Shown here piece by piece: positions 11,233 to 37,318 of a stretch of DNA of 37,318 nt. A program made the translations under genes and the position numbers. The notes below the pieces were generated by a model. That model was not told the origin of the DNA and made no database searches. It saw only the letters and a program-made list of their open reading frames with translations. Positions within the stretch are counted from its first letter, which is position 1, and each line of letters opens with the position of its first letter. The DNA comes from a virus, in the IMG/VR virus record IMGVR_UViG_3300025430_000054, positions 1-37,318 of that record. One strand, 5' to 3'.

Positions 11233-11254
11233 ACAAAGATGATAACTACTATGC

Positions 11255-12080: not shown

Positions 12081-12135
12081 AGAAGAAAAACATTGCTGAG
12101 CTTTAGCGAAAGCAATAGATTAGCTTCGCTAATCT
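12081..12135 (-). terminator. Terminator of the minus-strand gp26 operon (tandem hairpins)
   Basis: Read on the minus strand, AGATTAGC-GAA-GCTAATCT (8 bp, 12117-12135) is followed by a second stem ATTGCT...AGCAAT (12092-12116, with an inner GCTTT/AAAGC alternative). A T-rich tract TTTTTCTTCTTT (12079-12090) comes next. It lies nine bases beyond the stop of the 72-aa gene. The first hairpin could also act on plus-strand transcripts, but no U-tract follows on that side. Confidence 0.6.
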
Positions 12136-12143
12136 TGATACTG

Positions 12144-12362
12144 TTAAAAGAAAGGTAATCCAGATTCTTTAGTAGTTTCCATATGTTCTTTGATGATAGC
12201 ACCAATCATTTCTCTTTCAGTCTGACTTAGTAACATTGCTTCTTCGTAACTAACCCCACCTCTCATGTACCAGGTAAATTTTAGAGCTTCGCTTCTAATG
12301 GCTTTTGTCTCTTTGTCTAGTTCTTCAATGAACTCAACAACCTGCTCTCTATCGAGTTGCAA
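12144..12362 (-). CDS. Small conserved baseplate-assembly protein, gp51 position
   Basis: A 72-aa acidic helical protein. The core WYMRGGVSYEEAMLLSQTER and the ending TKESGLPFF resemble a small protein that follows gp26 in aquatic T4-like phages. T4 has the baseplate hub catalyst gp51 in its hub gene cluster, so a gp51-like assembly role is a reasonable guess from position, but no sequence match to T4 gp51 is claimed. The frame opens with TTG. AAGG, which overlaps the gp26 stop, is three bases before it, a short spacing, and no better in-frame start is present. It follows gp26 by five bases. Confidence 0.6.
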   Translation of the reverse strand: MQLDREQVVEFIEELDKETKAIRSEALKFTWYMRGGVSYEEAMLLSQTEREMIGAIIKEHMETTKESGLPFF

Positions 12363-12367
12363 AAGCC

Positions 12368-13204
12368 TTAGGCGAAAAAATTAGCGTAATCGAAATTTAA
12401 TGGAATATCATATTCATGACTACATGCTTTACATGCAACGTGAATAGGTTTGATTGCTGCTTGGGTATTGATATTTGCTAAACGTTCTTGTATTTGGCGC
12501 ATAACTTTATAGTCGGCCATATTGTAGTATTCTTTGATAAAATCAGAATCGGCAACTACAGTACCGTCTTCGGTGATAATTTCCTGGGTACTATTTGCAC
12601 ATACATTAATGTTTAAATCTATTAGACGTTGCAAGTACTCATCAGTTTTAGTTTTCTTTTCATCATCTGTTAACGTAGAGTCGTTGATAGTTCTTAGAAT
12701 TTGTTGTTCTGTAAATGTTAACTGATTAGTTTTATTGATTTCAAAGTATGGCTGTGGGCGTAAACGAATTTTGAGCCCATCAAACTCTAATAAAGTGCTA
12801 TAGTCTGGCATAGCGATTTGCCCTACTAGATTACTAATATCTAACGTAAAATTGCTCTCTTCCTTACATGCAGGGCAATTGGTATCAAAGTCCATATTAG
12901 CACCGTAGCTAGCAATGCGGATGTTTAATAATATAGCATCAACGTCAATACTAGGCATTAGCCATGCATTTTTAATGTTTGGACAACAGCTCTGGATAAT
13001 ATCTACAACTCCTTGCCCATTTAGTAGTGCGTCTGGTGTGCGTAGCGTAATTTCGTCGCGAGCAGTCATTGGATACACTGGAATTTCCCCTGTTACGGGT
13101 AATTCTAATGCGCCCTCAGGCCAATATTTCCCATTACTAGGTAATTTGATATAAATTGCAGGCTGTCTAAAGTGTTTAGCTAGCGGATTGTTTGATTGAA
13201 CCAT
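12368..13204 (-). CDS. 26: Baseplate hub protein gp26-like
   Basis: A 278-aa protein from the ATG at 13204 (MVQSNNPLAKHFRQ). The frame is open further upstream, but that part crosses a late promoter and has no ribosome binding site. Conserved blocks are YIKLPSNGKYWPEGALELP, MTARDEITLRTPDALLNG and a Cys pair C-x2-C (CPACKEE) near the middle. A second C-x2-C lies near the end (CKACSHEYDIPL), closed by FDYANFFA. The two Cys pairs suggest a zinc-binding lobe. This layout fits the T4 gp26 baseplate family, although T4 gp26 is shorter (208 aa). In T4 the protein takes part in hub assembly. Expression is from the minus-strand late promoter at 13239-13246, about 29 bases of leader. Confidence 0.8.
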   Translation of the reverse strand: MVQSNNPLAKHFRQPAIYIKLPSNGKYWPEGALELPVTGEIPVYPMTARDEITLRTPDALLNGQGVVDIIQSCCPNIKNAWLMPSIDVDAILLNIRIASYGANMDFDTNCPACKEESNFTLDISNLVGQIAMPDYSTLLEFDGLKIRLRPQPYFEINKTNQLTFTEQQILRTINDSTLTDDEKKTKTDEYLQRLIDLNINVCANSTQEIITEDGTVVADSDFIKEYYNMADYKVMRQIQERLANINTQAAIKPIHVACKACSHEYDIPLNFDYANFFA

Positions 13205-13214
13205 TTTTTTATCC

Positions 13215-13222
13215 CATAAATA
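13215..13222 (+). promoter_or_regulatory. Late promoter CATAAATA for the tape measure gene
   Basis: One mismatch to the T4 late consensus TATAAATA. Start predicted near 13228, giving a 28-base leader to the ATG at 13256. It sits 16 bases from an opposing late promoter. Confidence 0.7.
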
Positions 13223-13238
13223 TAGTTGAGTACCTGTA

Positions 13239-13246
13239 TATTTATT
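13239..13246 (-). promoter_or_regulatory. Late promoter AATAAATA for the gp26 operon (minus strand)
   Basis: Reads AATAAATA on the minus strand; start predicted near 13233, with a 29-base leader before the gp26 ATG at 13204. The two transcripts diverge across each other's promoter, so their 5' ends overlap by a few bases. Confidence 0.65.
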
Positions 13247-13255
13247 GGTAAAAAT

Positions 13256-22081: not shown

Positions 22082-22705
22082 ATGAAACCTTACACATATC
22101 TTATTAAACACAAACCTACCGGTAAAGTATATTATGGATTTCGATCTGCTAATACGCAAGAACCACATAAAGACTTATGGAATACATACTTTACAAGTAG
22201 TCCTAAAGTAAAACAACTCATTGAAGAAACTGGCAAAGAGAGTTTCGATGTAGAAATACGTAAAATATTTGAAACAAAAGAAGATGCTGTTAAATGGGAA
22301 ACACGAGTATTGCGTAGATGCAACGTGCTACATAATGACAAATGGATCAATCAAAATATTGCTGGATATGTAATACCAACGAATGAGTCAAATAAAAAAA
22401 TAAGTGAGTTTCACAGAGGCAAACCTAAAACAGAAGAACATAAAAGAAAATTAAGTTTATCTCAAAAAGGAAAACCAAAAATTAATTCTAAAAATCATAC
22501 CCCTGAGTATAAGGAATTAATGTCTAAACTCAAGTCTGGTGCCAATAATCCAATGTACGGAAAAGGATGCACTGAAGAACGTGCTCGTAAAATAGGTCAA
22601 GCTAACAAGGGGAAAGTACCAGTAAACAAAGGTAAGCCAATGAGTGAAGAACAAAAAGCAAAGATACGTGCTACTATAGCGGCAAAGAAAACGGCGCAAC
22701 CATAA
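22082..22705 (+). CDS. GIY-YIG homing endonuclease with NUMOD3 repeats (Seg-like)
   Basis: A 207-aa protein. GIY-YIG nuclease motifs are Y4-T-Y6 and Y17-Y18-G19, with R21 and catalytic-type E73 (KWETRVLRR). The C-terminal half holds NUMOD3-like DNA-binding repeats: EEHKRKLSLSQKGKPK (~118-133), SGANNPMYGKGCTEERARKI (~152-171) and MSEEQKAKIRATI near the end. The protein is very lysine-rich, and composition is more AT-rich than gp23 next to it. Free-standing Seg-type homing endonucleases of T4-like phages spread by cutting phages that lack them. It lies between gp23 and the following late gene, after the gp23 terminator, with its own late promoter and no ribosome binding site. Confidence 0.85.
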   Translation: MKPYTYLIKHKPTGKVYYGFRSANTQEPHKDLWNTYFTSSPKVKQLIEETGKESFDVEIRKIFETKEDAVKWETRVLRRCNVLHNDKWINQNIAGYVIPTNESNKKISEFHRGKPKTEEHKRKLSLSQKGKPKINSKNHTPEYKELMSKLKSGANNPMYGKGCTEERARKIGQANKGKVPVNKGKPMSEEQKAKIRATIAAKKTAQP

Positions 22706-23320: not shown

Positions 23321-23932
23321 ATGAGCACCACTAAAAGAATTAACGGCGATTATATCGTAACTAACAAAAGCACAATTGGTGCAAATGTTATAATTTCAAC
23401 GGGCACCTTGTTTATTGACGGAAATTTGCAAATTGGTGGTAATAGCCAAAGCATTAGTCATACTAATACTGATATCACAGATAACATTATTATTTTAAAC
23501 AAAGGCGAAACTAGTGCTGGTGTATCAAGTCCTTATGTATCTGGATTGCAAATTGATAGAGGATCGTTAACAAACGTATCATTGCGTTGGAACGACAGCC
23601 CAGGATATCAAAAATGGCAAATTACTACAGATGGTACAACATACTCTAATATTGCAGTAACTACCGCAACTGGTGGTGCAACGATTGCTGCCAACTTGGA
23701 TATGTTAAGCTACTCAATTTACAGCTCAACAAATGGCAATGTTTGCTTTAACGACAACGTTGCTATACAAAACACAACTGTTGCTCCTCCGGCACAAGCG
23801 GGATATAATATTTTATATACACAAACACCATCTGGTGGCGGATCTGGTCTTTATGTTACTAACACAACAACCACAGCACAAGAATTAGCCACAAAAGCAG
23901 CGGCAATTAAATACAGCATTATTTTTGGATAG
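23321..23932 (+). CDS. Tail-fibre-type structural protein
   Basis: A 203-aa protein. The N-terminal ~75 residues (GTLFIDGNLQIGGNSQSISH, then DITDNIIILNKGE) are the repetitive beta element and the ITDN.I.LN.GE motif seen at the start of many fibre proteins of T4-like aquatic phages. A similar ISDPLVVFNNGYSG motif is in the 1653-aa fibre at 29005. Then follows LRWNDSPGYQKWQITTDG, a common phage fibre motif. The rest is Thr/Ala-rich. It is probably an accessory fibre or fibre-adaptor subunit; the exact place in the virion cannot be told. Confidence 0.6.
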   Translation: MSTTKRINGDYIVTNKSTIGANVIISTGTLFIDGNLQIGGNSQSISHTNTDITDNIIILNKGETSAGVSSPYVSGLQIDRGSLTNVSLRWNDSPGYQKWQITTDGTTYSNIAVTTATGGATIAANLDMLSYSIYSSTNGNVCFNDNVAIQNTTVAPPAQAGYNILYTQTPSGGGSGLYVTNTTTTAQELATKAAAIKYSIIFG

Positions 23933-23944
23933 GATTAAATTAAA

Positions 23945-24256
23945 ATGGCAATACAGAATACAGTAGTTACAAACAGCACAGCATCAAGCATTTATACAAG
24001 CTCTGGTAGTAGTGCAATTACAACAATTCATTTATGTAATACTACGGGCGCCACTGTGACCGCTAACGTATATTTGGTGCAGTCGGGTAACATTGCAGGA
24101 TCAAACAATGCAATTTATACTCTGCTTAGTATCACTGCACAACAAACTTATATTGTCTACGCTGAAAAATTTATTTTATCAAATGGTGATTTTATTGCTG
24201 CTAACTGTTCCGCGGCAAATGCAATCACAGCCACAATAAGCTCAATTGGAATTTAA
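23945..24256 (+). CDS. Small beta-sandwich virion protein
   Basis: A 103-aa protein, twelve bases after the previous gene. Regular strands alternate with turns (ITTIHLCNTTGATVTANVYLV, then IYTLLSITAQQTYIVYAEKF and FILSNGDFIAANCSAANAIT), ending ATISSIGI. Proteins with the LCNT...L.NGD.I.A..SA pattern are common in the fibre region of cyanophage-like myoviruses and are annotated there as virion structural proteins. Likely fibre-associated or an attachment domain. No enzymatic motif. Confidence 0.6.
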   Translation: MAIQNTVVTNSTASSIYTSSGSSAITTIHLCNTTGATVTANVYLVQSGNIAGSNNAIYTLLSITAQQTYIVYAEKFILSNGDFIAANCSAANAITATISSIGI

Positions 24257-24258
24257 CA

Positions 24259-24717
24259 ATGGGAAAATATCTTAAAAACCCAGACCTATCGCCTGGAAGT
24301 TTAGCTGCACGAGTACCATTGGTACCAAGTTCAGCAATTAGCGATGCACCAGTTGACGGCTTGATTAGATTTAATCAATCTTCTAGTCGCATTGAGTTTT
24401 ATTATAACGGTAAATGGAATCAAGTTGCTAAAATCGGTACTGTACAAATCGTAGTAGATACAATCGTGCCAGATGGTTACTCTGCCTCTTGGTCTTCAAT
24501 GATACCAGCAGAAACAGATCCAACTGCTATTGCAGTTTTTATTGGTGGCGTTTATCAGTTACCAAACGTTAACTATACCTTAGGCGATTCAACACCGGGT
24601 ATTAAATCAGACCCTACTAGTACTATTGTGTTTTCATCTGTGCCTCCGGCTAACAACGGAGTAATGCCAAATACAATTACTATTATACATAATTTAAATA
24701 GCACCGATGCTGCCTAG
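24259..24717 (+). CDS. Fibre-module protein
   Basis: A 152-aa protein, two bases after the preceding stop. Residues ~31-55 (APVDGLIRFNQSSSRIEFYY plus NGKWNQVA) form the G-x-IRFN...IEFY.G.W module that recurs in the three large fibre proteins at 27320, 29005 and 34033. It is followed by a domain with FIGGVYQLPNVNYTL, equivalent to SINGTIQEPGTAYTV in the 528-aa protein and SINGVVQIPSLAYSV in the 1653-aa protein. The gene therefore looks like a stand-alone copy of a fibre domain pair. Function inferred as fibre component. Confidence 0.6.
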   Translation: MGKYLKNPDLSPGSLAARVPLVPSSAISDAPVDGLIRFNQSSSRIEFYYNGKWNQVAKIGTVQIVVDTIVPDGYSASWSSMIPAETDPTAIAVFIGGVYQLPNVNYTLGDSTPGIKSDPTSTIVFSSVPPANNGVMPNTITIIHNLNSTDAA

Positions 24718-24725
24718 GATCTAAA

Positions 24726-27320
24726 ATGGCAATTGGACGTATTACTGGACCAATGCTGTTTGACAACCTGGAACGCCAGGGTGTTAATCTTGCCTTTGAT
24801 GCTAACTTAGCCTACCTCGACGTTAGTAATCGTCGTGTTGGTATTAGCACAACAAATCCACAATACAGTCTTGACTCACCGGGCAACGTTCGTTTGGCCA
24901 ACATATTAATTCTTGGTAATACAATTAGCAGTAATGTTGGACAAGTTAATTTTGGCGCAGTATCTAATTTACGTTTAACTGGTGGCAATGCATTTGATAT
25001 TCTTTACACAGATGGCGCAGGTCATTTAGCATTTAGCAGTATCAGCACATTAGCCGGCTTAGAAGGATTTACTGGTAACAACATTATTGTTGGTACAACA
25101 AGTTACTCCAATGACGGTAATGGCACAAACGCATTAACAACAGGCATGACCATTGCCGATGCTATTAATCTATTAGACAATATTCTTGGTAACATTACAA
25201 ATAAGTCTGGTAACGTAGTTACTACTGGAAACTTATTTTACACAGGCGGTTCTGCAAATTATATTTTATCTACTAACGGCGCAGGAATTACCACCTGGAT
25301 AGATGCAAATACTAATCCAGCTATTGTTAGTATTAATTCTAATGCGGCAAGTACCAATGCCAACATATTTGCAGCAAATACACACATCCAAACACTTGAT
25401 GCTAATCTTGGTACAGCCACTACAAACATTACCACGTTGTTTTCCAATGCCGCTAGCCAAGCAATAAGCATTAACTCAATTAATGCTAACATTGGTGCAT
25501 ACGATACCTGGGCAAATGCAAACTTGTCCACTCAATCAACAAACATTACCACGTTGTTTGCTAATGCAGCAACTCAATCGACTGCTATAGATTTATTAAA
25601 TGCTAACGTAGCAACAGCCAACGCATTTATATCTAGCACCTCAACTTTACTAGCCAACGTAGCAGGTAACACTATTGTTTTGGGTGCTAACACTACACAA
25701 GCATTAGTTAGTAATGCTGTTACCTTAACACAAACAACCAAAGTGACCGACGCCATTGCACAATTAAATTATGTATTAGGAAAACTAGTACCACCTAGCC
25801 CGCCAAACTTTCCAAACAACACAACTATATCATTAAGCACAGCAACGACTACAGGCCTAATGACAACTGGTTGGTCACAAACTGACAATACAGGATGGGG
25901 CAATGCAAGTGTTACTGCTAGTACAAGCGTAAGTGCAGTTAGATCTGCTGTATTTACAACCAGTGCAGTAGCCAACGTTGGCCCAGGTAGTACTGGAACA
26001 GTAACAGCCTATGTTAATGGAATACCAAACGGTAACGTAACATTAACAGGCAGTAACAGTAATACTACCAACGGCAATTTATATGTTTACAACGTACAAG
26101 ATTATCATGCAGTAGTATCTTCAGTTACTGCTGGTTTCTGGACAGTATTTTCAACTTATGCTACTGCCACAGGCGGTATCCCGTCTGGTTGGAATCGTGC
26201 AAACATATACGATGCCGGAACAGGCACAGGAACAAATACTATAACCTGGTACTATGATGCAAGTAGTGCCGGCACCCCAACATTTAGTAATACAAGCGCA
26301 GCAGTAACAGGTAATAGTGTAACATACTCTAGTACAATACCACACTATAATAGTAGTGCAACATTTAGACTTAAAGGCAACGTTGCCAATTTAAGCGGCG
26401 ACCTATATTTGGCTAGCCCATTTAGTGTCAGTGCTGGCGGTGCATTTGCTACACCAACTACTCCAACGTACTCAAGTTTTGTTCCTACTATATCAACCCC
26501 GTTAACTCGCAATTACTCAACAAGTTCTTATTTTGAAACACCAGTTAACATTACTACAGGCTTTGGATCCAGCACTTCTGGACCTAGCATTACATTTAGT
26601 AATCCTTATGCATCTGCATCGTCTGGGGCAATTACTCCTACTGGTACTCCAACAGTATTATATAAAACTGGTACAACCACACAAATAGAAGAAACAGCGA
26701 TTACTAACTCGTACACCGGTGCAACTTCTGCCTATCGTATAGTAAACCCAGATGGCGGGGCTGGCAGTGATACTCCTGCATACACAGGGTCTGAAGCAAC
26801 ATTTAACAGCCAAACAAGCGTACTGTTAAACACTGATGCCACTGTAGTTGCTGCAAAATTACAGTATGATGTAACAAATTATTCTAGCGGCTCATATTGG
26901 CCGTACGGTCCTAACTTAAGTTCGGGTCGTAGTGCTACACAATACTTTACTTTTAAGTGGACCAAGGCAGCAGTTTCTAAATTTAATATTACCTACTCAG
27001 GAACCATTGCCGGACTATGGGTGGCATTACCTGGTAGCGTAATTGATACAACAGCCGCACCGACTAACGGATGGATTAACATGGCAACTGCGTATGCTGG
27101 ATCCGGTGTTCCTGGCACAGGCACAGGCGGTAACGGATCAAACGGTTGCTCCACTGGTGGCGCAGCAGTATTAAACAGTTTAGTCACCGGTGGAAGCTAT
27201 ACTTGCACTTTTGGTACAGCAAGCTCTACAAACTCAACAGGCAACGAAATTTATATTCGTGTTAAATTAACTAGCGGACAAAGTTTAACCGCATTAAGCA
27301 TAGCGAACCCAACTAACTAA
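24726..27320 (+). CDS. Large tail fibre/adhesin protein
   Basis: An 864-aa protein with AGGATC before the ATG. The N-terminus (MAIGRITGPMLFDNLERQGV, then NLAYLDVSNRRVGISTTNP) is the conserved opening of cyanophage-type fibre proteins. Residues ~190-320 are Asn/Ala/Thr-rich with heptad-like repeats (ITTLFSNAAS, ITTLFANAAT), probably a trimeric stalk. The central part is Thr/Ser/Gly beta-rich. The C-terminal ~110 residues (YFTFKWTKAAVSKFNITYSG, IAGLWVALPGS, STNSTGNEIYIRVKLTSGQS) are a recurrent tip domain in aquatic T4-like phages. Probably a host-recognition fibre. Its stop overlaps the next start (TAATG). Confidence 0.7.
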   Translation: MAIGRITGPMLFDNLERQGVNLAFDANLAYLDVSNRRVGISTTNPQYSLDSPGNVRLANILILGNTISSNVGQVNFGAVSNLRLTGGNAFDILYTDGAGHLAFSSISTLAGLEGFTGNNIIVGTTSYSNDGNGTNALTTGMTIADAINLLDNILGNITNKSGNVVTTGNLFYTGGSANYILSTNGAGITTWIDANTNPAIVSINSNAASTNANIFAANTHIQTLDANLGTATTNITTLFSNAASQAISINSINANIGAYDTWANANLSTQSTNITTLFANAATQSTAIDLLNANVATANAFISSTSTLLANVAGNTIVLGANTTQALVSNAVTLTQTTKVTDAIAQLNYVLGKLVPPSPPNFPNNTTISLSTATTTGLMTTGWSQTDNTGWGNASVTASTSVSAVRSAVFTTSAVANVGPGSTGTVTAYVNGIPNGNVTLTGSNSNTTNGNLYVYNVQDYHAVVSSVTAGFWTVFSTYATATGGIPSGWNRANIYDAGTGTGTNTITWYYDASSAGTPTFSNTSAAVTGNSVTYSSTIPHYNSSATFRLKGNVANLSGDLYLASPFSVSAGGAFATPTTPTYSSFVPTISTPLTRNYSTSSYFETPVNITTGFGSSTSGPSITFSNPYASASSGAITPTGTPTVLYKTGTTTQIEETAITNSYTGATSAYRIVNPDGGAGSDTPAYTGSEATFNSQTSVLLNTDATVVAAKLQYDVTNYSSGSYWPYGPNLSSGRSATQYFTFKWTKAAVSKFNITYSGTIAGLWVALPGSVIDTTAAPTNGWINMATAYAGSGVPGTGTGGNGSNGCSTGGAAVLNSLVTGGSYTCTFGTASSTNSTGNEIYIRVKLTSGQSLTALSIANPTN

Positions 27321-28906
27321 TGACAATATCTCAAACACAACTCGTCGACATATTGTATAAGAAACTTAGCGGGGTTTCTAAAACTGATACGTCTACGGCT
27401 AAGTCACCGGCTAACGAAGCTAATGCTAGTCCTCAGTTAAGCCCCGGCACAACCATATGGCAACAGGATTATTATATTCCTAGTGTTACTACATTACCTA
27501 CAAGCAATAGTAGCGTAGTTACGGTTTATAGAGATACACTAACATCGACAGTACAGGCCACAGCCTTAAGTGAAGGTATTGCACAAGAAACATGGGCAAC
27601 TAACTTAACTGACTGGATTCCTCCTCAATTTGGTGCAGGATATCAATTACAATTATTTGCTGGCCCGCCTGGGCGTAGCAATCCGCAGACATTTACCAAT
27701 TTGCCAGTTGGCGGATCCGGTAACAGCGATTCGTGGTACTTTGATTACTCTGCTGGTATTGTAAACTTTGCTGATACAAACGTACCAACTCCTGTAGCTA
27801 ACGTAGCCAACGTTGTTTATGTAGTTGGTGCTCGTTACACTGGTACCAAAGGTATTAATAATTTTGCTAACCTACAGGTAGCAAACATATCAATTAACGG
27901 TAATACAATTACAGGTAACACTGGCGTAACCGTTAATGGTAATCTTACCACAAATTACATTACCGGCAACCTGACCGGACCGCAAACATTAACTAGTCTA
28001 ACAGTATATGGTAACATTACTACAGGTAACGTATTAACTGGCGGGTTATTTTGGTCTAACGGAAATCCGGTACTATTTACTAACTATAGCGATAGCAATG
28101 TAGCACTATTATTATCTAACTTTGGTAGTAATACAATTTCTACAACTGGTAACATCAATGGAAATTTCATTGGTAACCTACACACTAACAGCATTACAAC
28201 TAATACGTCTGGCGTAGTAACATTTAATATGTCAACTGCGATAACGTTACCAGTAGGCGGAAATACTGCACGTCCAAGTTCTCCAACAGCAGGACAAATT
28301 CGTTGGAATTCAGATTTAGGGTCAATTGAGTATTATAGCGGCACAGGATGGGGCAGTTTAAGTAATAGTATTACTAGCCAAATTATTGTTGGCGATAATG
28401 TTAGTAAAACATTTACCTTAAATAGCGCCACTACAGCTGAAGCAATTTTAGTCAGTATTAACGGTACAATACAAGAACCTGGAACAGCATATACTGTAAC
28501 AGGAAACTCAATTACATTTACGGATAGTATTGCACCACTAAGTTCTGATGTAATCGATATTCGCTTTTTAGCAACAGCATCGGTTATAGATTTAAATTCT
28601 ACTATTGTTGATACATCTGCTATTGATATTACAACAAGTAATACTATCATTGACAGCTGGAATACCGGCATATATCGTAGTGCAAGATATACAGTTACAG
28701 GTACAACAAGCACCGATTCGTCTATGGCAGACGTGCATATCCTTCAAAATAACGGTGTAGTGATACTAAATGCGTTTGGAATACTAAATACTGGTAGCAA
28801 TTCAATTACTTACTACGCTAACATCAGCGGTGGAACAGTTAACTTACTAGCACAGGGCACCGTGTCTGGTAACGTCAGATTAAGCAAAACCTACTTCACT
28901 GCATAA
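27320..28906 (+). CDS. Tail fibre-type protein with shared C-terminal module
   Basis: A 528-aa protein coupled to the preceding gene by a TAATG junction. The N-terminal ~185 residues (ISQTQLVDILYKKLSGVSKT, WQQDYYIPSVTTLP, WYFDYSAGIVNFADTNVP) look like a baseplate- or fibre-attachment domain of aquatic T4-like phages. Beta-repeat elements follow (ITGNLTGPQTLTSLTVYGNI). Near residues 310-345 is the RPSSPTAGQIRWNSDLGSIE module, then the SINGTIQEPGTAYTV domain. The final ~95 residues (YRSARYTVTG, VRLSKTYFTA) match the end of the 1653-aa fibre (YRSAKYVVQV, VRIKKDYLAL). Likely part of the fibre assembly, sharing a tip or trimerisation domain with its larger neighbour. Confidence 0.68.
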   Translation: MTISQTQLVDILYKKLSGVSKTDTSTAKSPANEANASPQLSPGTTIWQQDYYIPSVTTLPTSNSSVVTVYRDTLTSTVQATALSEGIAQETWATNLTDWIPPQFGAGYQLQLFAGPPGRSNPQTFTNLPVGGSGNSDSWYFDYSAGIVNFADTNVPTPVANVANVVYVVGARYTGTKGINNFANLQVANISINGNTITGNTGVTVNGNLTTNYITGNLTGPQTLTSLTVYGNITTGNVLTGGLFWSNGNPVLFTNYSDSNVALLLSNFGSNTISTTGNINGNFIGNLHTNSITTNTSGVVTFNMSTAITLPVGGNTARPSSPTAGQIRWNSDLGSIEYYSGTGWGSLSNSITSQIIVGDNVSKTFTLNSATTAEAILVSINGTIQEPGTAYTVTGNSITFTDSIAPLSSDVIDIRFLATASVIDLNSTIVDTSAIDITTSNTIIDSWNTGIYRSARYTVTGTTSTDSSMADVHILQNNGVVILNAFGILNTGSNSITYYANISGGTVNLLAQGTVSGNVRLSKTYFTA

Positions 28907-28966
28907 AATTTTCCATTTGGAGTTTGACAGAAAAACACCCTGCAAACCCAAAATACCTACGGCCAG

Positions 28967-28974
28967 CATAAATA
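28967..28974 (+). promoter_or_regulatory. Late promoter CATAAATA for the giant fibre gene
   Basis: One base from consensus in the 98-base gap; start near 28980, 25-base leader with CCAGGAG ahead of the GTG at 29005. Confidence 0.7.
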
Positions 28975-29004
28975 CCATATAAGCAGATAACCAGGAGCTT
29001 TGAC

Positions 29005-32000
29005 GTGGCCAATATAACAAGAATTAAAAATAACCAGATTACCGATAGTACAATTACCTATGCAAAAATTGCGTCGGGTACACTAGTTGGTACAAACTTT
29101 AATGCAAATTTAACATTAAATTCTAACGTTACCATCCTTGGTAACTTAACAGTAGCGGGTACACCAACTACACTTAATTCCGTTAATACGTATATTAGCG
29201 ATCCGTTGGTTGTTTTTAATAACGGCTACTCAGGTACACCAAGCTATGACGTTGGTATGGTTATTAACCGCGCCTTGTATGCTACAGCACCATATGGTTC
29301 TGTAAACGCTGCGTTCGTTTGGAAAGAAGCAGACACAGCATTTGAAGCATTGATGACAACAGAAGTTGGATCAACAACTGGTGCTATTAATAATTCTGGT
29401 TATGCTAACGTTAAAATGGGTAACACTACTATTGTTACCGGCACAGTTTCAAATAGTTTAACAGTAGGCACCACGTTAGGTGTTACTGGTACATCAACAT
29501 TGGGTGTAGTAAACACATCCGGTGTATTAACATCAACTGCTAACGTAGTAGCTGCTTCTGGTACAACAAGTACAAGTACAACAACTGGTGCATTAACAGT
29601 AGTTGGTGGAGCAGGCGTAAGTGGCAACGTATATGTTGGACAAGCAGTAATTGCTACTGGCGGTACAGTATCGACTGGTACATTTGCTGGCGCATACAGT
29701 GATGGTATTATATTTGATTATGTAAACAACATGGGTCGTGTTAGCGTTGGTGCTGGCGACGGCTTAACAATTTATAATGGTGGTTTAGCTAATACAGCCT
29801 TATTGGCAATTACTAGTTTAGGCAACGTGACAGCAACTGGCAACTTAATTGCCACAACTGGTATTTACGGTGCATCGTTAAATTTAAGTGGTGCATTAGC
29901 GGCTGGTAGTATTGTTAACACACCAATTAGTGGGTCAACTGGCTACTTTACAACTGCACAGGCCACAAATTTTAGTTCTGGTAATATTTTAGTTACTGGT
30001 GGTTCATTAAGTGGAATAACAAACTTAAATGTAACAACAGAAACAGCTACAAACTTTGCATCAGGTAATGCTCAAATTACTGGTGGTAGTGTGACTGGCA
30101 TTACGGCCCTATCTGCCACAACAGCACAAGCAACTAACTTTAGTTCTGGTAACGCAGTTATTACAGGCGGTAGCGCAAATGGATTAACAACATTTAGCGG
30201 CACAACTGGCCAAGCCACAAACTTTAGTACAGGTAATATTTTAGTTACTGGCGGTTCACTAAGTGGCATAACAAACTTAAATGTAACAACAGAAACAGCT
30301 ACAAACTTTGCATCAGGTAATGCTCAAATTACCGGCGGAGCAATATCTGGCACACCAATTAGTGGTTCAACTGGTTACTTTACAACAGCACAAGCAACAA
30401 ACTTTAGTAGTGCAAACGCATTAATTACAACCGGCGCTGTTACAAACTTTGCAACAGGTAATGCTCAAATTACTGGCGGCTCACTAAGTGGCATAACAAA
30501 CTTAAACGCAACAACAGCACAAGCAACTAACTTTAGTTCTGGTAATATTTTAGTTACTGGTGGTTCATTAAGCGGCATTGCAAATTTCAATGTTACTACT
30601 GGCACTATTGCTAACTTTGCTTCTGGTAACGCAGTTATTACCGGCGGTAGTTTAAACGGTACGTCGGTTGGTGCAACTACAGCAAGTACTGGTGTGTTTA
30701 CTACTTTAATAGCAACTAGTACAGCAATTGCCAACGGAAATATTGTTGCTAACTCGGGCACAGCAAGCACAAATACAACAACTGGAGCTTTAGTTGTTAA
30801 AGGCGGTGTGGGCATTAGTGGCGCAGTAAACATTGGCGGCGATGCTAAAATTTCTGGAAACTTAGAAGTTGACGGCACTTTAACATATATCAATACTACA
30901 ACAGAAGTAGTATCGGGTGTTGAAGTCGTTGCTGGTAATTTAGTTGCTAACTCTGGTACAGCAAGCTCGTCAACAACAACTGGCGCATTAGTGGTTGCTG
31001 GCGGATTTGGTATCAGCGGTGCTATTAATTCCGGTGGTGCAGTTAATACATCCGGTGTAGTAAGTATTACAAATGCTACTGCAACTACAGGTTCTGGCAC
31101 AGGTGCATTACAAGTATCTGGCGGCGCCTATGTTGCTGGTAATATTAACGTTGGTGGCTCAATTAATGCACTAACAGGAACTACTGCAAGTACAAGTACT
31201 TCAACTGGTGTATTAGTATTAAGTGGTGGTTTAGGTGTTGCTGGTAACATCAACGGTGGCGGCTCAACAAACGTATTAACTGGTTCATTGAATGCTGGTA
31301 GTATTATTAATACACCAATTAGTGGTTCAACTGGTTACTTTACAACAGCACAAGCAACTAACTTTAGTTCTGGTAATATTTTGGTTACTGGCGGCACACT
31401 AAGTGGAATAACAAACTTAAATGCAACAACATTACAAGCAACAAACTTCAGTTCTGGTAATATTTTAATTACTGGCGGTACATTAAGCGGTATTACTGCA
31501 TTCAATGGTACAACTGCTACTATTGCAAACTTTGCATCCGGTAATGCAGTTATTACAGGCGGTAGTATAAATGCAACACCAATTGGTGCTTCATCTGCTA
31601 GCACTGGTGCATTTACAACATTAACAAATTCTGGTGTACATATTAGTAGCGGCAACATTGTTGCGGCCTCTGGTACACCAAGTACAAGTACAACAACTGG
31701 TGCATTGGTCATAGCTGGCACAGGCGGTTTAGCAGTTGGCGGCAACTTAAACGTTGGTGTGTATAACTCATCATATCATAAGATTTCTGGTAACTTGTTA
31801 CTAGGTCAGGGCGCAATTAACGCTACTACACTTGATACTATTTTAACCATTAACGAAAATACAGATACACCAATCGTATCTAATGCCACAGTACACTTAT
31901 CTGGTACAACTGGTAAGAGTGCAATTTACGGAGCAGACTCATTTGGTACAACAGTTGGTTCTATTTTCTACACTAGAAAAGCACGTGGTACAAGCGCAAG

Positions 32001-33966
32001 CCCAACTGCTGCACAACAAGGCGACGGATTAGGTTACTTCATTGGTCGTGGTTATGGTGCGACTGGTTACAACTTTGCTGCCACAGCACCACAAGCATCT
32101 GGTTTAGGAATTTATGCTAGTGAAAATTATACAGATACTGCCCAAGGCACATTCTTAACACTAAGCACAGTCAACAACGGCGCAACACTTGCAAACGTAG
32201 CAGTTAAAGTTGAGCAAAACGGTAACGTTGTTATTACAGCAGGTACACCAAGCACAACAACTAACACAGGCGCATTAGTAGTTCTTGGCGGTGTTGGTAT
32301 GATTGGTGCATTAAACGTTGCTGGTACAAGTACATTTGGTAGCACAACCTTACACAATGCTAACGTAGTTATTAACTCCGGTGCAGACAGCGTAAGTACA
32401 ACAACTGGCGCATTGGTTATTCCAAACGGCGGTGGTGCAGCAATTACTGGTAACGTATACGTTGGTAATAACTTGTACATTGGCGGAAGCGCATATAGTC
32501 AAACATTTGCTAACCCAACTATTATTGCTGTAGACTCTGGCATTAACTATGCACAGATGGCATTAAAAAATACTGCAGCGTCTGGATCTGCAGACTATGC
32601 GGCCTATGTCGACATTGGTACAGATGCCGGCGGTTGGGTTGACATGGGTATCGCTGGATCATCGTTTGCTGATGGTAACTATACTATTACTAAACCACAA
32701 GACGGTTATGTAATTATTCGCCCAACAAGCAACTCATACGGTGGTAACTTAGTACTTGGTACCAGTGAAGCAGGTAGCTATAATGATGTTACAATTTCTG
32801 TCGGTAGTTTCTTTGCTAACGCTGAAGTTGCTCGTTTCCATGGTAATACAAATACATCTGGTACATTAACAGTTAAACTACCTACAAACAACACAATGAC
32901 AGCCAACACAGGTGCATTGCAGTTATGGGGTGGTGCAAGTATTAGCGGTAACGTATACCACGGTGGCGCTGCATTATTTAACGGCTCACAAAGTTCTAAC
33001 TATGACGTACTAGTACGTGGTGTTAACGATACATCTTTAGTATGGGCACGTCCAAATACAACATACGATTCAGTAATTATTGGTGGTAGTGCATCACCAA
33101 GTACATTTGTACGCGGTGCTAAGTTAGCAATTAACTCAACTGACTCCTTGCTATTACCGGTTGGTACAACAGCACAACAACCTGGTAACTCAGGTGGTAC
33201 AAACGTACAAGGTATGTTACGTTTCAACTCTAGCTTACCTGGTATGGAAGTATATAACGGTACAGCATGGCAAGCGTTTACAACATCGTTTACTGTTATT
33301 GTTGACGCACAATTTACTGCAAGTGCTGCTCAAACTTCGTTTACATTGTCGACGATTTCAGCATTACAAACAACTGCAAGTTGTATTGTAAGTATCAACG
33401 GTGTGGTACAGATCCCATCTCTTGCTTATAGCGTAAACGGTTCAACTGCTGGTAGCCAAACTGTTGACTTTACTGAAGGTCTAGTTGCAGGCGACGTAGT
33501 TGATGTACGTTGCTTAACTACAACAGTAACAGTTGGTACTATTACTAGCACTAACGGTTATATGGCATTCCAAGTTGACAACTATGGTGCTAACATTACT
33601 ACAGGTAGTGCTAGCCAAGTTGTTACTACAAGCTGGAACCCAGCTGGAGCCCAGGTAAGTTTTGTTCCTAACGTAGCGGTAGCAAGTGCTAACACAGCAA
33701 CAACAATTGACACTATTGATAATACACAATATCGTAGTGCCAAGTATGTAGTACAAGTTACAAACGGTGCTAACTACCAAGTTCAAGAAGTATTAGTAAT
33801 CAGTAACGGTACAACAGCAACATCTGTAACATACGGTACACTACAAACTAACGGTAACTTAGGTGTAGTACAAGCAACACAAAGCGGTAGTAACACATTG
33901 ATTCAATTCGTTGCAGCTAACGCTACAAACAACGTAAGAATCAAGAAAGACTACTTAGCATTATAA
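29005..33966 (+). CDS. Giant repeat-containing tail fibre protein
   Basis: A 1653-aa protein with GTG start and CCAGGAG. Residues 1-45 (ITRIKNNQITDSTITYAKIA) and the ISDPLVVFNNGYSG motif are the usual fibre N-terminus. Two repeat types follow. The first is a 28-residue unit, ATNFSSGNILVTGGSLSGIT plus about eight residues, in blocks at ~320-550 and ~784-858. The second is a ~40-residue STSTTTGALVVxGGxGIxGN unit scattered about nine times. From ~880 to ~1390 the sequence is more varied, with globular parts. The C-terminal ~270 residues contain the GMLRFNSSLPGMEVYNG module, SINGVVQIPSLAYSV and a terminal domain shared with the 528-aa protein. It is the likely main long fibre (role of T4 gp34-37), but no T4 homology is visible. 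Confidence 0.72.
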   Translation: MANITRIKNNQITDSTITYAKIASGTLVGTNFNANLTLNSNVTILGNLTVAGTPTTLNSVNTYISDPLVVFNNGYSGTPSYDVGMVINRALYATAPYGSVNAAFVWKEADTAFEALMTTEVGSTTGAINNSGYANVKMGNTTIVTGTVSNSLTVGTTLGVTGTSTLGVVNTSGVLTSTANVVAASGTTSTSTTTGALTVVGGAGVSGNVYVGQAVIATGGTVSTGTFAGAYSDGIIFDYVNNMGRVSVGAGDGLTIYNGGLANTALLAITSLGNVTATGNLIATTGIYGASLNLSGALAAGSIVNTPISGSTGYFTTAQATNFSSGNILVTGGSLSGITNLNVTTETATNFASGNAQITGGSVTGITALSATTAQATNFSSGNAVITGGSANGLTTFSGTTGQATNFSTGNILVTGGSLSGITNLNVTTETATNFASGNAQITGGAISGTPISGSTGYFTTAQATNFSSANALITTGAVTNFATGNAQITGGSLSGITNLNATTAQATNFSSGNILVTGGSLSGIANFNVTTGTIANFASGNAVITGGSLNGTSVGATTASTGVFTTLIATSTAIANGNIVANSGTASTNTTTGALVVKGGVGISGAVNIGGDAKISGNLEVDGTLTYINTTTEVVSGVEVVAGNLVANSGTASSSTTTGALVVAGGFGISGAINSGGAVNTSGVVSITNATATTGSGTGALQVSGGAYVAGNINVGGSINALTGTTASTSTSTGVLVLSGGLGVAGNINGGGSTNVLTGSLNAGSIINTPISGSTGYFTTAQATNFSSGNILVTGGTLSGITNLNATTLQATNFSSGNILITGGTLSGITAFNGTTATIANFASGNAVITGGSINATPIGASSASTGAFTTLTNSGVHISSGNIVAASGTPSTSTTTGALVIAGTGGLAVGGNLNVGVYNSSYHKISGNLLLGQGAINATTLDTILTINENTDTPIVSNATVHLSGTTGKSAIYGADSFGTTVGSIFYTRKARGTSASPTAAQQGDGLGYFIGRGYGATGYNFAATAPQASGLGIYASENYTDTAQGTFLTLSTVNNGATLANVAVKVEQNGNVVITAGTPSTTTNTGALVVLGGVGMIGALNVAGTSTFGSTTLHNANVVINSGADSVSTTTGALVIPNGGGAAITGNVYVGNNLYIGGSAYSQTFANPTIIAVDSGINYAQMALKNTAASGSADYAAYVDIGTDAGGWVDMGIAGSSFADGNYTITKPQDGYVIIRPTSNSYGGNLVLGTSEAGSYNDVTISVGSFFANAEVARFHGNTNTSGTLTVKLPTNNTMTANTGALQLWGGASISGNVYHGGAALFNGSQSSNYDVLVRGVNDTSLVWARPNTTYDSVIIGGSASPSTFVRGAKLAINSTDSLLLPVGTTAQQPGNSGGTNVQGMLRFNSSLPGMEVYNGTAWQAFTTSFTVIVDAQFTASAAQTSFTLSTISALQTTASCIVSINGVVQIPSLAYSVNGSTAGSQTVDFTEGLVAGDVVDVRCLTTTVTVGTITSTNGYMAFQVDNYGANITTGSASQVVTTSWNPAGAQVSFVPNVAVASANTATTIDTIDNTQYRSAKYVVQVTNGANYQVQEVLVISNGTTATSVTYGTLQTNGNLGVVQATQSGSNTLIQFVAANATNNVRIKKDYLAL
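29962..30655 (+). repeat. 28-residue (84-bp) tandem repeats, block 1
   Basis: About eight units of ATNFxSGNxxITGGSxSGIT plus eight residues, in the fibre gene. Units 1 and 4 are nearly identical at DNA level over ~104 bases (29980 onward and 30232 onward, offset 252 = three units). Units 5 and 6 are altered in length. This is consistent with recent unequal recombination. Confidence 0.8.
31354..31575 (+). repeat. 28-residue tandem repeats, block 2
   Basis: Three further units of the same 28-residue repeat, separated from block 1 by ~700 bases of the other repeat type. The flanking segment SGSTGYFTTAQ also precedes the units in block 1, so block and flank were probably copied together. Confidence 0.78.
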
Positions 33967-33975
33967 TGTAATATA

Positions 33976-34003
33976 GATTAGCGTGGTCGGTTCCACGTTA
34001 ATC
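33976..34003 (+). promoter_or_regulatory. Intergenic hairpin between two fibre genes
   Basis: GATTAGCGTGG pairs with CCACGTTAATC (11 bp with one G-T pair) around loop TCGGTT, ten bases after the stop of the giant fibre gene. No clean T-run follows (ATTTAAGCTATTTT), so it may be a weak terminator, attenuator or mRNA-processing site. Confidence 0.5.
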
Positions 34004-34032
34004 ATTTAAGCTATTTTGGGGAACATGGAACC

Positions 34033-36195
34033 ATGGCAAACGGAAATTTTATAGTACAAAACGGTCTACAAATTGGACCATTAACAATTGATGCAGCATC
34101 AGGCGGTATCACTACAACAGGTAACATTACTACAACAGGTACAGTAACAACATTTATTAATGAAATTGTTACAGGTACTGAAGCAGTTTACGGACAACTA
34201 TCGGCTAACGCTGGCATTGGTAGTTTAAGTACTACAACTGGTACATTCTTAGTTACCGGTGGCACAGGTATAACAGGCGATGTTTTTGTTGGCGGCAACT
34301 TACACACAACAGGCACAGCCTATTTAAAAATTCCAGCTGGTACAACAGCACAACGTCCTGGCGCTGCAAACGTAGCACTGGGTATGATTCGCTATAACAG
34401 CTCTATTAGCTCATTTGAGGGCTATGGTGCCGGGTCGGCTTGGTCAAGTTTAGGTGGCGTTAAGTCAGTTGACGGTTATGCTACTATTACTGCTGAAGCA
34501 AGTGCCGGTGCAGGCGACGACGTATTACGTTTCTATTCTGGTTCTACTGGTTCACAGGTTCAAGTTGCATGGGCAAGTGCCAGCAACGTAAGTATTCTTC
34601 CAACAACAACATCTACTAGCTCTACCACTGGTGCACTACAAGTAGCAGGTGGTGTTGGTATTGCTGGCGCATTAAACGTTGGCGGAAATATGACCATTAC
34701 TGGTAATATTTTACCAACTGCTAACATTACATACAACCTTGGTAGTCCAACTCAACAGTTTAAATCTGTTTATGTTGGTCCGGGAACACTTTATGTTAAC
34801 GGTAAACCAGTTATTACAGATAATTCTGGTACAATTCAATTTACTACAACTCCTGGACAGAATTTATCTATCCTGACAGATGCAGGCGGTAATTTACAAT
34901 TTGGTGCCAACGGCGCCGGTGGTGTAATTCAAGTTCAAGCACCATTACAAATTGGTGCTGGCTATAATATTACTTCTAGCGACGGTAATGCAATCAAGAT
35001 TGCTAACCAAGTTGCTGTTGATAGTATTGTTTCTCGTAGTACTAACACAAACTTAACATTAGCTGCAAACGGCACAGGTAAAATTGCTATTAATAACAGC
35101 ATCACCGGTGGCGGCACAGTTAATATTGCTGACACAACTGCAAGTACATCAACTAGTACTGGTGCTTTAGTTGTTAGCGGTGGTATTGGTGTTAACGGCG
35201 ATTTACGTATTTCTGGAAACATTTACTCAAATGGTCTTTTAGCAGTACAAACACAACAGTTAGATGTACAAGCCCCGTTAGTATATCTGGCTGCAAGCCC
35301 AAGCTATCCGTATAGTTATGATATTGGTATGTATTCTCACTTTATTGGTGGTGCTGCTAACGCATACTCACATACTGGTGTGGTACGTAATCACGCAGAT
35401 GGTACTTGGAATTTCTTTAGTAACTGTACTAGTGAACCAACTACAACAGTTAACTTTTCTGATCCAAACTGGGTATGGGATAAAGTTAAATCGGGCGATC
35501 ATATTATTGCTAACGCAACAGCAAGTTCAAGTACAACAACTGGTGCTTTAGTAGTTACTGGTGGTGCTGGTATTGCTGGCGCAATTTATGCTGGTAGTTT
35601 AAATGCAGGTTCTGGCACAATTACTACATCGGGTACAGTTAGTGCCGGTACACTAACAGGTACATTAAGTACAGCCGCACAAACTAACGTAACAAGCGTT
35701 GGTACATTGACTGGCTTGACAGTTAGTGGTGCTATTGTACCAAATGCCAACGCAACCATCAACCTGGGCAGCTCAGGCGCTCAGTGGGCAACAATTTACG
35801 GTGTGGCAACTAAAGCACAATACGCTGACTTAGCAGAAAATTACCAAGCAGATAAGTCCTACCCTCCTGGTACTGTAGTTATGTTTGGTGGTACAGCAGA
35901 AGTTACTGTAGCTGATGCCGATACAACATCAGTAGCTGGTGTAGTTTCTACAAATCCAGCACACTTGATGAATGGTAGTTTAGTTGGCGCAACAGTAGTT
36001 CCGCTAGCACTACAAGGACGTGTTCCATGTAATGTTATTGGTCCAGTTACCAAAGGTGATATGATGGTATCTGCAGGATTTGGTTTTGCTAAATCAAGCG
36101 CAGATCCTAAAGTTGGTCAAGTAATTGGTAAAGCACTACAAGATGTTGCTTTTGCAGGTAAAGCAGTTATTGAAGTGGTTGTTGGCCGCGTATAA
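34033..36195 (+). CDS. Tail fibre protein with conserved C-terminal head domain
   Basis: A 720-aa protein with GGGGAAC before the start region. It has no obvious late promoter of its own, so it is probably read through from 29005. N-terminal NGNFIVQNGLQIGPLTIDAA is followed by fibre repeats of the STTTGALxVxGGxGIxG type (four copies) and the RPGAANVALGMIRYNSSISS module near residue 115. Residues ~418-480 contain LVYLAASPSYPYSYDIGMYS. The last ~125 residues (from Y597-ADLAENY, with GTVVMFGGTAEVTVAD, VAGVVSTNPAHLMN, LALQGRVPCNVIGPVTKGDM, VIGKALQD and IEVVVGRV) form a conserved domain found at the end of many phage fibre and structural proteins. It probably acts in trimer folding or tip formation. 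A strong terminator follows. Confidence 0.72.
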   Translation: MANGNFIVQNGLQIGPLTIDAASGGITTTGNITTTGTVTTFINEIVTGTEAVYGQLSANAGIGSLSTTTGTFLVTGGTGITGDVFVGGNLHTTGTAYLKIPAGTTAQRPGAANVALGMIRYNSSISSFEGYGAGSAWSSLGGVKSVDGYATITAEASAGAGDDVLRFYSGSTGSQVQVAWASASNVSILPTTTSTSSTTGALQVAGGVGIAGALNVGGNMTITGNILPTANITYNLGSPTQQFKSVYVGPGTLYVNGKPVITDNSGTIQFTTTPGQNLSILTDAGGNLQFGANGAGGVIQVQAPLQIGAGYNITSSDGNAIKIANQVAVDSIVSRSTNTNLTLAANGTGKIAINNSITGGGTVNIADTTASTSTSTGALVVSGGIGVNGDLRISGNIYSNGLLAVQTQQLDVQAPLVYLAASPSYPYSYDIGMYSHFIGGAANAYSHTGVVRNHADGTWNFFSNCTSEPTTTVNFSDPNWVWDKVKSGDHIIANATASSSTTTGALVVTGGAGIAGAIYAGSLNAGSGTITTSGTVSAGTLTGTLSTAAQTNVTSVGTLTGLTVSGAIVPNANATINLGSSGAQWATIYGVATKAQYADLAENYQADKSYPPGTVVMFGGTAEVTVADADTTSVAGVVSTNPAHLMNGSLVGATVVPLALQGRVPCNVIGPVTKGDMMVSAGFGFAKSSADPKVGQVIGKALQDVAFAGKAVIEVVVGRV

Positions 36196-36213
36196 ACTTT
36201 AAGTTTAAAGCAC

Positions 36214-36239
36214 AAAAGGGCGTTTAAGGCGCCCTTTTT
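36214..36239 (+). terminator. Rho-independent terminator
   Basis: AAAAGGGCG (36214-36222), loop of seven bases, CGCCCTTTT (36230-36238) and a T-run to 36239, 19 bases after the stop of the 720-aa fibre gene. Confidence 0.88.
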
Positions 36240-36246
36240 GTTTGGC

Positions 36247-36254
36247 GATAAATA
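36247..36254 (+). promoter_or_regulatory. Late promoter GATAAATA
   Basis: One base from consensus, right after the terminator; start near 36260 gives a 16-base leader with CGGAA before the ATG at 36276. Confidence 0.7.
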
Positions 36255-36275
36255 TACAATAACACGGAATTCAGA

Positions 36276-37318
36276 ATGGCACTAACTAGACCTAAGATTT
36301 GGGACATTGATACTAATATAGAGTATTTTGTGGACCCAATTACTGTCCTACACCAAGGGGCAACTTCAGCCAATGTTGATGTCGGATTTTTGTTTAATCG
36401 TGCCAATGGCCTAGTGTCAAATGTAGCATTATACTGGAATGAATCTACCAGTGCATTTGTGACAGCATTTACTAGTAATACAGGAATTACAAATTCAAAT
36501 ATTCTACCAACAACGTATGCTAACATAACAACAGGACATCACCTCCCTGGCGAAAACGTAACTTACAACTTAGGTAGCCCAACACAACGTTGGAATACAC
36601 TATACATCAGTGGTAACACCATTGATATGGCAGGGCACACAATCAGTACATCAACTGGCCAAATTACATTTAGTACTCCTCAGGGCGGATTGATTGCTGG
36701 TATATTTTCTACCTTAGCTGCTAACGCTAATACACCAAGCACAAGTATATCTACAGGTACAATGGTTATTACTGGTGGTGCTGGTATTAGTGGCAATTTA
36801 TATGTGGGTGGTAACCTTGATGTTGTTGGTACAACAATATTTAGAAATACAGAAGTTGTAACAAATACAGAATACGCAAGTACAATCAACGCCACTAACG
36901 TATACGCAACTACAATTGGTAACATTGGTGCCAACGTAATTGGTACAGGGACATACTTAACATCATTAACAGCAACCAATGTCCTAGGCACAGTAGCAAC
37001 TGCCAATATTTCATATTATGATAATATTAGTGCCACAACAACTAATGCTACTTACTACCCAGCAATCTTTTCGCAGGCCAGCGGTAACGTAGTAAACAAT
37101 ACCTCCACAGGATTAACATTTAATCCATCAACAAGTACTTTAAACACAGGTACAGTACTTGCAACAACTATTAATGCTAGCACCATTGGTAACACAGGCG
37201 CAGTATATACTGGCTCAACATTATCATTGAGTAGTTGGGCAAACATTGCCGGACCATTAGTAGTAACAAACAACACAGCAGTACAGGCCATACAGGTTGC
37301 CGGTACCTCTACTAAAGG
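36276..37318 (+). CDS. Tail fibre-type protein (3' end beyond window)
   Basis: An open frame from ATG 36276 continues 347 codons to the right edge without a stop. It starts MALTRPKIWDIDTNIEYFVD and has DVGFLFNRANGLVSNVALYW, comparable to the DVGMVINR block of the 1653-aa fibre. ENVTYNLGSPTQRWNTLYIS then parallels the NITYNLGSPTQQF block of the 720-aa fibre. One copy of the STSISTGTMVITGGAGISGN repeat follows near residues 150-175, then Asn/Thr-rich beta repeats (TYAST, TIGNIGANVIGTGTYLTSL). It is another member of the fibre family in its own transcription unit. The C-terminus and therefore the tip domain are not in the window. Confidence 0.7.
   Translation, partial: MALTRPKIWDIDTNIEYFVDPITVLHQGATSANVDVGFLFNRANGLVSNVALYWNESTSAFVTAFTSNTGITNSNILPTTYANITTGHHLPGENVTYNLGSPTQRWNTLYISGNTIDMAGHTISTSTGQITFSTPQGGLIAGIFSTLAANANTPSTSISTGTMVITGGAGISGNLYVGGNLDVVGTTIFRNTEVVTNTEYASTINATNVYATTIGNIGANVIGTGTYLTSLTATNVLGTVATANISYYDNISATTTNATYYPAIFSQASGNVVNNTSTGLTFNPSTSTLNTGTVLATTINASTIGNTGAVYTGSTLSLSSWANIAGPLVVTNNTAVQAIQVAGTSTK

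Follow-up and report, generated by a model that had tools for sequence, protein, structure and literature searches.

In viral record IMGVR_UViG_3300025430_000054, from a giant bacterial virus, the whole of which (37,318 bases, classed as a linear fragment) served as the window of this analysis, two consecutive fibre genes meet at a pair of domains that probably acts as a portable socket-and-plug joint between fibre polypeptides. The first domain, C8578, forms the C-terminal ~530 amino acids (aa) of open reading frame (ORF) 24726, and the second, N9417, forms the N-terminal ~180 aa of ORF 27320. The two halves occur as a constant pair, they split one or the other of two fibre genes (slots A and B), they have changed slot, and they were transferred from slot A to slot B; we are highly confident of each of these four points. 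The parts of the joint in the window are the following.

24726..27320, + strand: ORF 24726 (864 aa), first half of split slot A, with the A_N N-terminus and the C8578 C-terminus (phrog_8578)
25701..25781, + strand: motif SNAVTLT..T.VTDAIA.LN..LG, upstream border of the joint, aa 326-352 of ORF 24726
25704..27302, + strand: C8578, C-terminal half of the joint (proposed socket), aa 327-859 of ORF 24726
27318..27322, + strand: TAATG, one-base overlap between the stop of ORF 24726 and the start of ORF 27320
27320..28906, + strand: ORF 27320 (528 aa), second half of split slot A, in the order N9417-RFN-ING-YRSA
27320..27856, + strand: N9417, N-terminal half of the joint (proposed plug), aa 1-179 of ORF 27320

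C8578 and N9417 as a constant pair

The phrog_8578 profile matched aa 326-861 of ORF 24726 (E 2.2e-81) and the phrog_9417 profile matched aa 1-179 of ORF 27320 (E 6.7e-24); both PHROG families are listed with unknown function. Pairing was examined in 197 merged records and the window. All 105 C8578 ORFs that lay away from record ends, from 103 records, were followed head-to-tail by an N9417 ORF, and three further C8578 ORFs ran off record ends. No N9417 ORF without C8578 was found in this set, in which many loci had been fetched with C8578 as the query, so that N9417 orphans would be hidden. An earlier record set likewise gave 45/45 pairs and no N9417 orphan, with two C8578 ORFs cut at record ends.

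C8578 ended 1-7 aa short of the ORF stop, and N9417, whose start residues were conserved, began -1 to +31 bp from that stop. Stop and start overlapped by one base in 38/105 pairs (TAATG in 36, TGATG in 2). The gap at the joint had a median of 1 bp, compared with 70-112 bp between slot genes, and this closeness suggests coupled synthesis. A stop and a start so near to each other would also be expected if the split were an assembly error or the product of a programmed frameshift. The chance of this is practically negligible, because the 105 pairs come from 103 records and isolate genomes also have the split, because the start of N9417 is conserved, and because whole slots lack the joint domains instead of carrying fused copies of them.

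Joints also occur in series. Cultured Caulobacter, Brevundimonas and Sinorhizobium phages (CcrColossus, CcrPW, Bajun, Marchewka and Phosso) had two pairs spread over three ORFs, the first ending in C8578, the second starting with N9417 and ending in C8578, and the third starting with N9417. Magneto and a single locus from a metagenome-assembled genome (MAG) had one pair each, and C8578 and N9417 were equal in number in all seven loci (six isolate phages and the MAG). Among the metagenome records, L211 had the same serial arrangement and L221 had two pairs. At least 544 environmental stretches contained a confirmed C8578 relative. A scan of genome contigs found one, in a Saprospirales MAG with one joint.

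Splitting of fibre slots A and B

In some relatives slot A was a single ORF that started like 24726 and ended like 27320, and such whole slots were without the C8578 and N9417 domains rather than carrying them fused. Where both slots could be called, A was split and B whole in 27 records (window included), A was whole and B split in eight, both were whole in seven and both were split in none; these counts are not a prevalence, since the records are mostly metagenome fragments, many of them fetched via C8578 and some of them near-copies. L037 and L017 are a nearly reciprocal pair. The whole slot A of L017 matched the first ORF of L037 over aa 1-157 (71%) and the second over aa 158-446 (61%), and in slot B the roles are reversed, the whole gene of L037 matching the outer parts of the split L017 gene at 73% and 80%. 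Breakpoints were taken from composition-corrected BLAST; uncorrected BLAST spanned unrelated S/T/G/N-rich stretches.

We also searched 15 whole records for C8578. The domain was found in the three of three records expected to have it, and it was absent from all nine records with an unsplit slot A (including L058, 374 kb) and from three others, all of which may be fragments.

C8578 was found behind several N-terminal families, with clusters of 56, 18, 10, 7 and 3 records plus singletons; those with 18, 10 or 3 members and the singletons represent additional families from other lineages. In this test of fibre domain mosaicism, the same C8578 domain thus stood in different gene contexts.

Three arrangements were recorded in addition. 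In N-terminal cluster 1 (L086, L095, L102 and 15 more records), the joint lies in fibre genes with another N-terminus; these are capsid-related phages in which the 23321-23945-24259 block is not in view. In L258 an RFN module opens the C8578 ORF, which thereby resembles a lengthened version of the stand-alone 24259-type gene. In merged record L167 (L167+L178), slot A is seemingly broken into three ORFs at 10444-13519 (an A ORF, a 23945-like ORF and a separate RFN-ING-YRSA ORF), and its joint sits in slot B.

Slot changes and the exchanged unit

The C8578 tree (64 rows) contained three slot changes. Forcing the eight B copies into one clade cost 231.6 log units (approximately unbiased test, p-AU 8e-7); one of the eight, L199, comes from a record that breaks off within the joint and was therefore assigned to B manually. 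When the long rows L167 and L092 were removed, three changes were again obtained and the single B clade had a p of 1.7e-4. L171, an A copy, grouped with the B copies L010 and L236, so one of the three changes could be a return to A.

The motif SNAVTLT..T.VTDAIA.LN..LG was present in 6/6 split B, 0/69 unsplit B (ORFs classed as unsplit, some of them partial), 9/21 whole A and 31/36 split A. An A-gene motif that stands at the joint in split B only, as compared with unsplit B, indicates that the joint entered B from A. The string GKLVP was tried as a marker of whole A genes too and failed; the shared element is the longer motif upstream of it.

Split and unsplit slots occur in related records, and losses are easy. 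Both facts would suit an ancestor with both slots split, from which the joint was lost differentially without ever moving. We consider such a history improbable: none of the 42 records with both slots called has both split, the B copies are nested within the A copies on the tree, and a single B clade is rejected, where two old clades would be expected, and the distribution of the A-gene motif separates every split B from the unsplit B ORFs.

To delimit the unit that was exchanged, we compared segments in 26 genomes (28 had all segments, and two near-copies were dropped). The slot A flanks on either side of the joint correlated with each other (r 0.49) and with backbone genes (0.56 and 0.57). 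N9417 correlated with the backbone at only 0.19, though its own odd and even columns agreed at 0.74, and within C8578 it followed the final 150 columns (0.38) but not the initial ones (0.12). Correlation of C8578 with the backbone was 0.34 for columns 1-90, 0.48-0.59 for columns 76-240 and 0.10-0.27 after column 226. By this pattern, the unit exchanged amounts to about 300 residues at the end of one protein together with about 180 at the start of the following one.

Predicted structures of the joint domains

The single-chain AlphaFold model of C8578 was beta-rich, with a predicted local distance difference test (pLDDT) score of 81.6, and that of N9417 scored 76, residues 1-39 being mostly low. 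Foldseek against PDB returned five C8578 matches of low TM-score, to bacterial surface adhesins, and no N9417 match at E 0.001 or better. On a second look, the best rows had middling Z: a phi812 baseplate chain for C8578 (Z 7.2, root-mean-square deviation (rmsd) 3.2, 116 residues) and a phage Chi neck chain for N9417 (Z 5.6, rmsd 4.1, 96 residues). CBA120 TSP4 was a weak row for N9417 (Z 2.7, rmsd 3.6, 69 residues), and a PDB sequence search gave no meaningful match for the joint domains. On these models no fold match appears convincing and we claim no fold family; the absence of a match is no evidence of a new fold.

Proposed mechanism and its alternatives

The joint interrupts what in some relatives is a single fibre gene, and two polypeptides result. 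It splits slot A or slot B according to lineage, has changed slot about three times and entered B from A. We propose that C8578 serves as the socket and N9417 as the plug, that the two halves thereby rejoin on the virion and form an articulated fibre, and that the tight stop-start coupling keeps the two proteins in equal supply. Rejoining would be needed because a cassette in the middle of a gene would otherwise cut off the distal part, and the serial chains fit this. That C8578 and N9417 dock with each other seems rather likely.

Several observations weigh against this proposal. Docking is deduced from the logic of the genes, and the slot counts are bound by the sampling given with them. The shorter N9417 tree had two slot changes, not three. 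The discordance correlations are of moderate size, and the mere adjacency of segments already raises them. Co-inheritance of the halves is imperfect, as the nearest relative of the window C8578 was L012 (82%) and that of its N9417 was L139 (93%). About 28 residues were left unmatched at the split/whole join between the window and L058, and the downstream border in L037/L017 was soft, a shortened query having aligned differently. Finally, the second ORF of 5/105 pairs (L215, L250, L254, L255 and L257) consisted of little more than N9417 (186-211 aa), which means that carrying a distal fibre is not a necessary role of N9417.

These nearly bare ORFs, together with a last chain ORF of only 228-232 aa in Caulobacter-type phages, would fit N9417 as a cap, an intermolecular chaperone or a separate anchor, with the cassette turning one fibre into two that are placed separately. 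We regard this as rather unlikely, since middle proteins with an N9417 start and a C8578 end form chains, and since in most pairs N9417 is followed by a long fibre part with receptor-type modules.

The socket-and-plug joint might also have a wider use, which we put forward tentatively as quite possible. In such a general code, a cassette would cut a fibre gene, the halves would rejoin on the virion, and two cassettes would give a three-piece chain. Lineages of giant myoviruses and of Caulobacter-type siphoviruses would use it to lengthen, articulate or re-equip fibres while the baseplate anchor stays the same.

Shared modules of the fibre locus

The fibre genes of the window begin at 23321 and continue to the end of the record, on the + strand. 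Their order (23321, 23945, 24259, slots A, B, C and D) was mostly kept in relatives; for this comparison 138 merged records and the window were searched, and records with marker genes were listed. Besides the joint, the locus contains the following.

23321..23932, + strand: small fibre-locus gene, LNNG module at aa 52-99
23945..24256, + strand: small conserved locus gene
24259..24717, + strand: stand-alone RFN-ING gene (RFN 24325-24420, ING 24448-24690), at the same place in relatives
28247..28351, + strand: RFN module of slot A (profile hidden Markov model, HMM)
28370..28570, + strand: ING module of slot A (profile HMM)
28634..28894, + strand: YRSA ending of slot A (profile HMM)
29005..33966, + strand: slot B fibre gene, unsplit in the window, with LNNG, 9 STTTGAL repeats, RFN (33154-33273), ING (33298-33516) and YRSA (33691-33954), all +
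34033..36195, + strand: slot C fibre gene, with STTTGAL x4, RFN (34330-34446), NLGS x2, LNNG (35266-35424) and a C-terminal ADLAE domain, all +
36276..37318, + strand: slot D fibre gene, truncated by the end of the record, with LNNG (36333-36473), NLGS (36543-36626) and STTTGAL (36738-36818), all +

None of nine window proteins had a Pfam match above the cut-offs. The original prediction had described the locus as a set of fibre proteins assembled from shared modules, and profile HMMs recovered each module where it had been placed: G-x-(I/L)RFN in four genes (24259, 27320, 29005 and 34033), the ING domain in three (24259, 27320 and 29005, the copy in 24259 reading FIGG instead of ING), the YRSA ending in two (27320 and 29005) and the STTTGAL repeat in three (29005 with nine copies, 34033 with four and 36276 with one). 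In the 152-aa stand-alone gene, said to consist almost only of two modules, RFN and ING covered 113 residues. Two modules were new to that list. LNNG ('D..I.LN.G...D.G') was found in 23321, 29005, 34033 and 36276, by which 23321 joins the module-sharing set, and NLGS ('NLGSP.Q.W..LY') was found twice in 34033 and in 36276.

As the first HMMs contained window copies among their seeds, control HMMs were trained on chosen genes of other records with the window excluded, and 2200 shuffled window proteins served as background. Cross-gene matches of these models exceeded the best shuffled-protein score, with a few misses. The RFN model from the stand-alone gene gave 46 bits for 27320, 32 for 29005 and 25 for 34033 (best shuffled 5.4). 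The slot-B-trained ING model reached 27320 and missed 24259; the reverse-trained model did recover both. The LNNG model from the 23321 gene found 29005 and 36276 weakly (14 and 13 bits, against 10.7 for shuffled proteins) and missed 34033, while the slot-D-trained one reached 34033 and 29005 and missed 23321. At the level of sequence similarity, module sharing among the fibre genes is thereby confirmed as real and beyond chance.

Test for gene conversion

From this sharing, gene conversion and shuffling within the locus had been proposed. Sharing stood; conversion did not, for the modules followed their slot across relatives. The RFN-ING set held 147 distinct copies from 138 merged records and the window, of which 137 were kept after 10 slotless copies had been dropped. 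The nearest copy was in the same slot of another genome in 134/137 cases, in another slot of another genome in three, and in the same genome in none, which is essentially the outcome that the original prediction had named as its refutation. The nearest copy was likewise in the same slot elsewhere for YRSA (49/52), LNNG (165/177), NLGS (47/61) and STTTGAL (187/271), and in the same genome for 0/52, 0/177, 1/61 and 24/271, respectively.

Mean identity is a fairer test than these counts, because other genomes outnumber the own genome. For RFN-ING it was 0.450 within and 0.442 between genomes for slots A and B, 0.329 and 0.324 for A and the stand-alone gene, and 0.316 and 0.319 for B and the stand-alone gene. 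The corresponding values were 0.304 and 0.296 for YRSA, 0.258 and 0.247 for LNNG (in which single within-genome pairs reached 0.80), and 0.558 and 0.555 for STTTGAL, which had no slot signal (0.54-0.60 in all classes). The largest within-genome excess was that of NLGS (0.440 and 0.400). For the longer modules, gene conversion among the fibre genes is rejected on these near-equal means. The slight within-genome excess leaves room for rare exchange of short modules, and NLGS and STTTGAL may have undergone rare exchange or local duplication.

As an account of the locus as a whole, gene conversion or shuffling of RFN, ING, YRSA and STTTGAL is very improbable. Modules common to several genes, STTTGAL copies without slot signal and at times nearest in their own genome, and the NLGS excess would speak for it; the absence of any own-genome nearest copy for RFN-ING, YRSA and LNNG, and identities nearly equal within and between genomes, speak against it. 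The slot genes are in a fixed order, each with its own N-terminus, and carry old common paralogous modules that diverged slot by slot. The 152-aa stand-alone gene, found at the same place in relatives, is a separate gene and not fresh debris. Shuffling is real, but the clear case of it is the pair formed by the end of 24726 and the start of 27320, which moved between slots in different lineages.

Other features of the window

An 84-nt tandem repeat (29950-30338, ~62% matches) lies within the slot B gene and is a local expansion inside one gene. Relatives have the C-terminal domain of 34033 (35818-36192) in their slots C and D, and matches to it also occur in PA5oct-like phages, Atu_ph07 and Phosso.

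The gp23-type capsid protein of the window has 71% identity to that of Vibrio phage 2.275.O and 67% to that of Pseudomonas phage PA5oct, and its IMG/VR relatives reach 96%. By eye, two ORFs (22082-22705 and 11255-11683) resemble homing endonucleases. The former stands directly after gp23; relatives of it follow gp23 in several more distant records, and the records closest by gp23 have at best weak matches. Four ORFs (4840-5832, 5825-7261, 9005-9985 and 9967-11232) with cysteine-rich motifs, noted by eye, are presumably radical SAM enzymes, and they are interleaved with ORFs that resemble gp47/gp46 recombination nuclease genes.

Comparison with known systems and implications

The long tail fibre of T4 (gp34-gp35-gp36-gp37) consists of several polypeptides, and the C-terminus of the proximal part meets the distal part at the knee, as described in the excerpt of PMC5537660 available to us. 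The proposed joint would be alike in both respects. The T4 hinge is a monomeric protein of its own, gp35, whereas the joint of the window has no gene between its two ORFs. A gp35-type hinge gene between the joint ORFs was absent from 105/105 pairs, as N9417 lies -1 to +31 bp from the first stop in all of them; elsewhere in the genome none was sought. C8578 and N9417 had no sequence link to solved structures, and the same excerpt of PMC5537660 does not mention a joint that moves between fibre genes.

The branched tailspikes of CBA120 and RaK2 are networks of several receptor-binding proteins, assembled through conserved domains (PMC10253068). Those assembly domains are N-terminal, whereas here a C-terminal domain is accompanied by an N-terminal one at the start of the ORF that follows. 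Fibre domains of phage receptor-binding proteins recombine into new arrangements, according to the portion of PMC10684548 consulted. What distinguishes the unit described here from such mosaicism is that it reaches across an ORF boundary, from before the stop of one ORF to beyond the start of its successor, and travels as a pair of half-genes. In polyketide synthases, docking domains at the C- and N-termini of consecutive proteins pair and so order a chain; these proteins and their function are unrelated to C8578 and N9417, and the likeness is an analogy only. ORFs 24726 and 27320 match PHROG 8578 and 9417, for which we saw no PHROG note of head-to-tail pairing, and a portable pair of C-terminal end and N-terminal start across two ORFs was not found in open-licence PMC, a scope that leaves out subscription papers and preprints.

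With the joint, two PHROG families without known function gain a concrete, testable role. These families are common: relatives of C8578 occur in environmental stretches, and cultured Caulobacter and Brevundimonas phages also have the families. If the docking is true, segmented fibres would have in this pair a natural connector that can be transferred, and it would show how phages can exchange the distal part of a fibre while leaving its attachment undisturbed.

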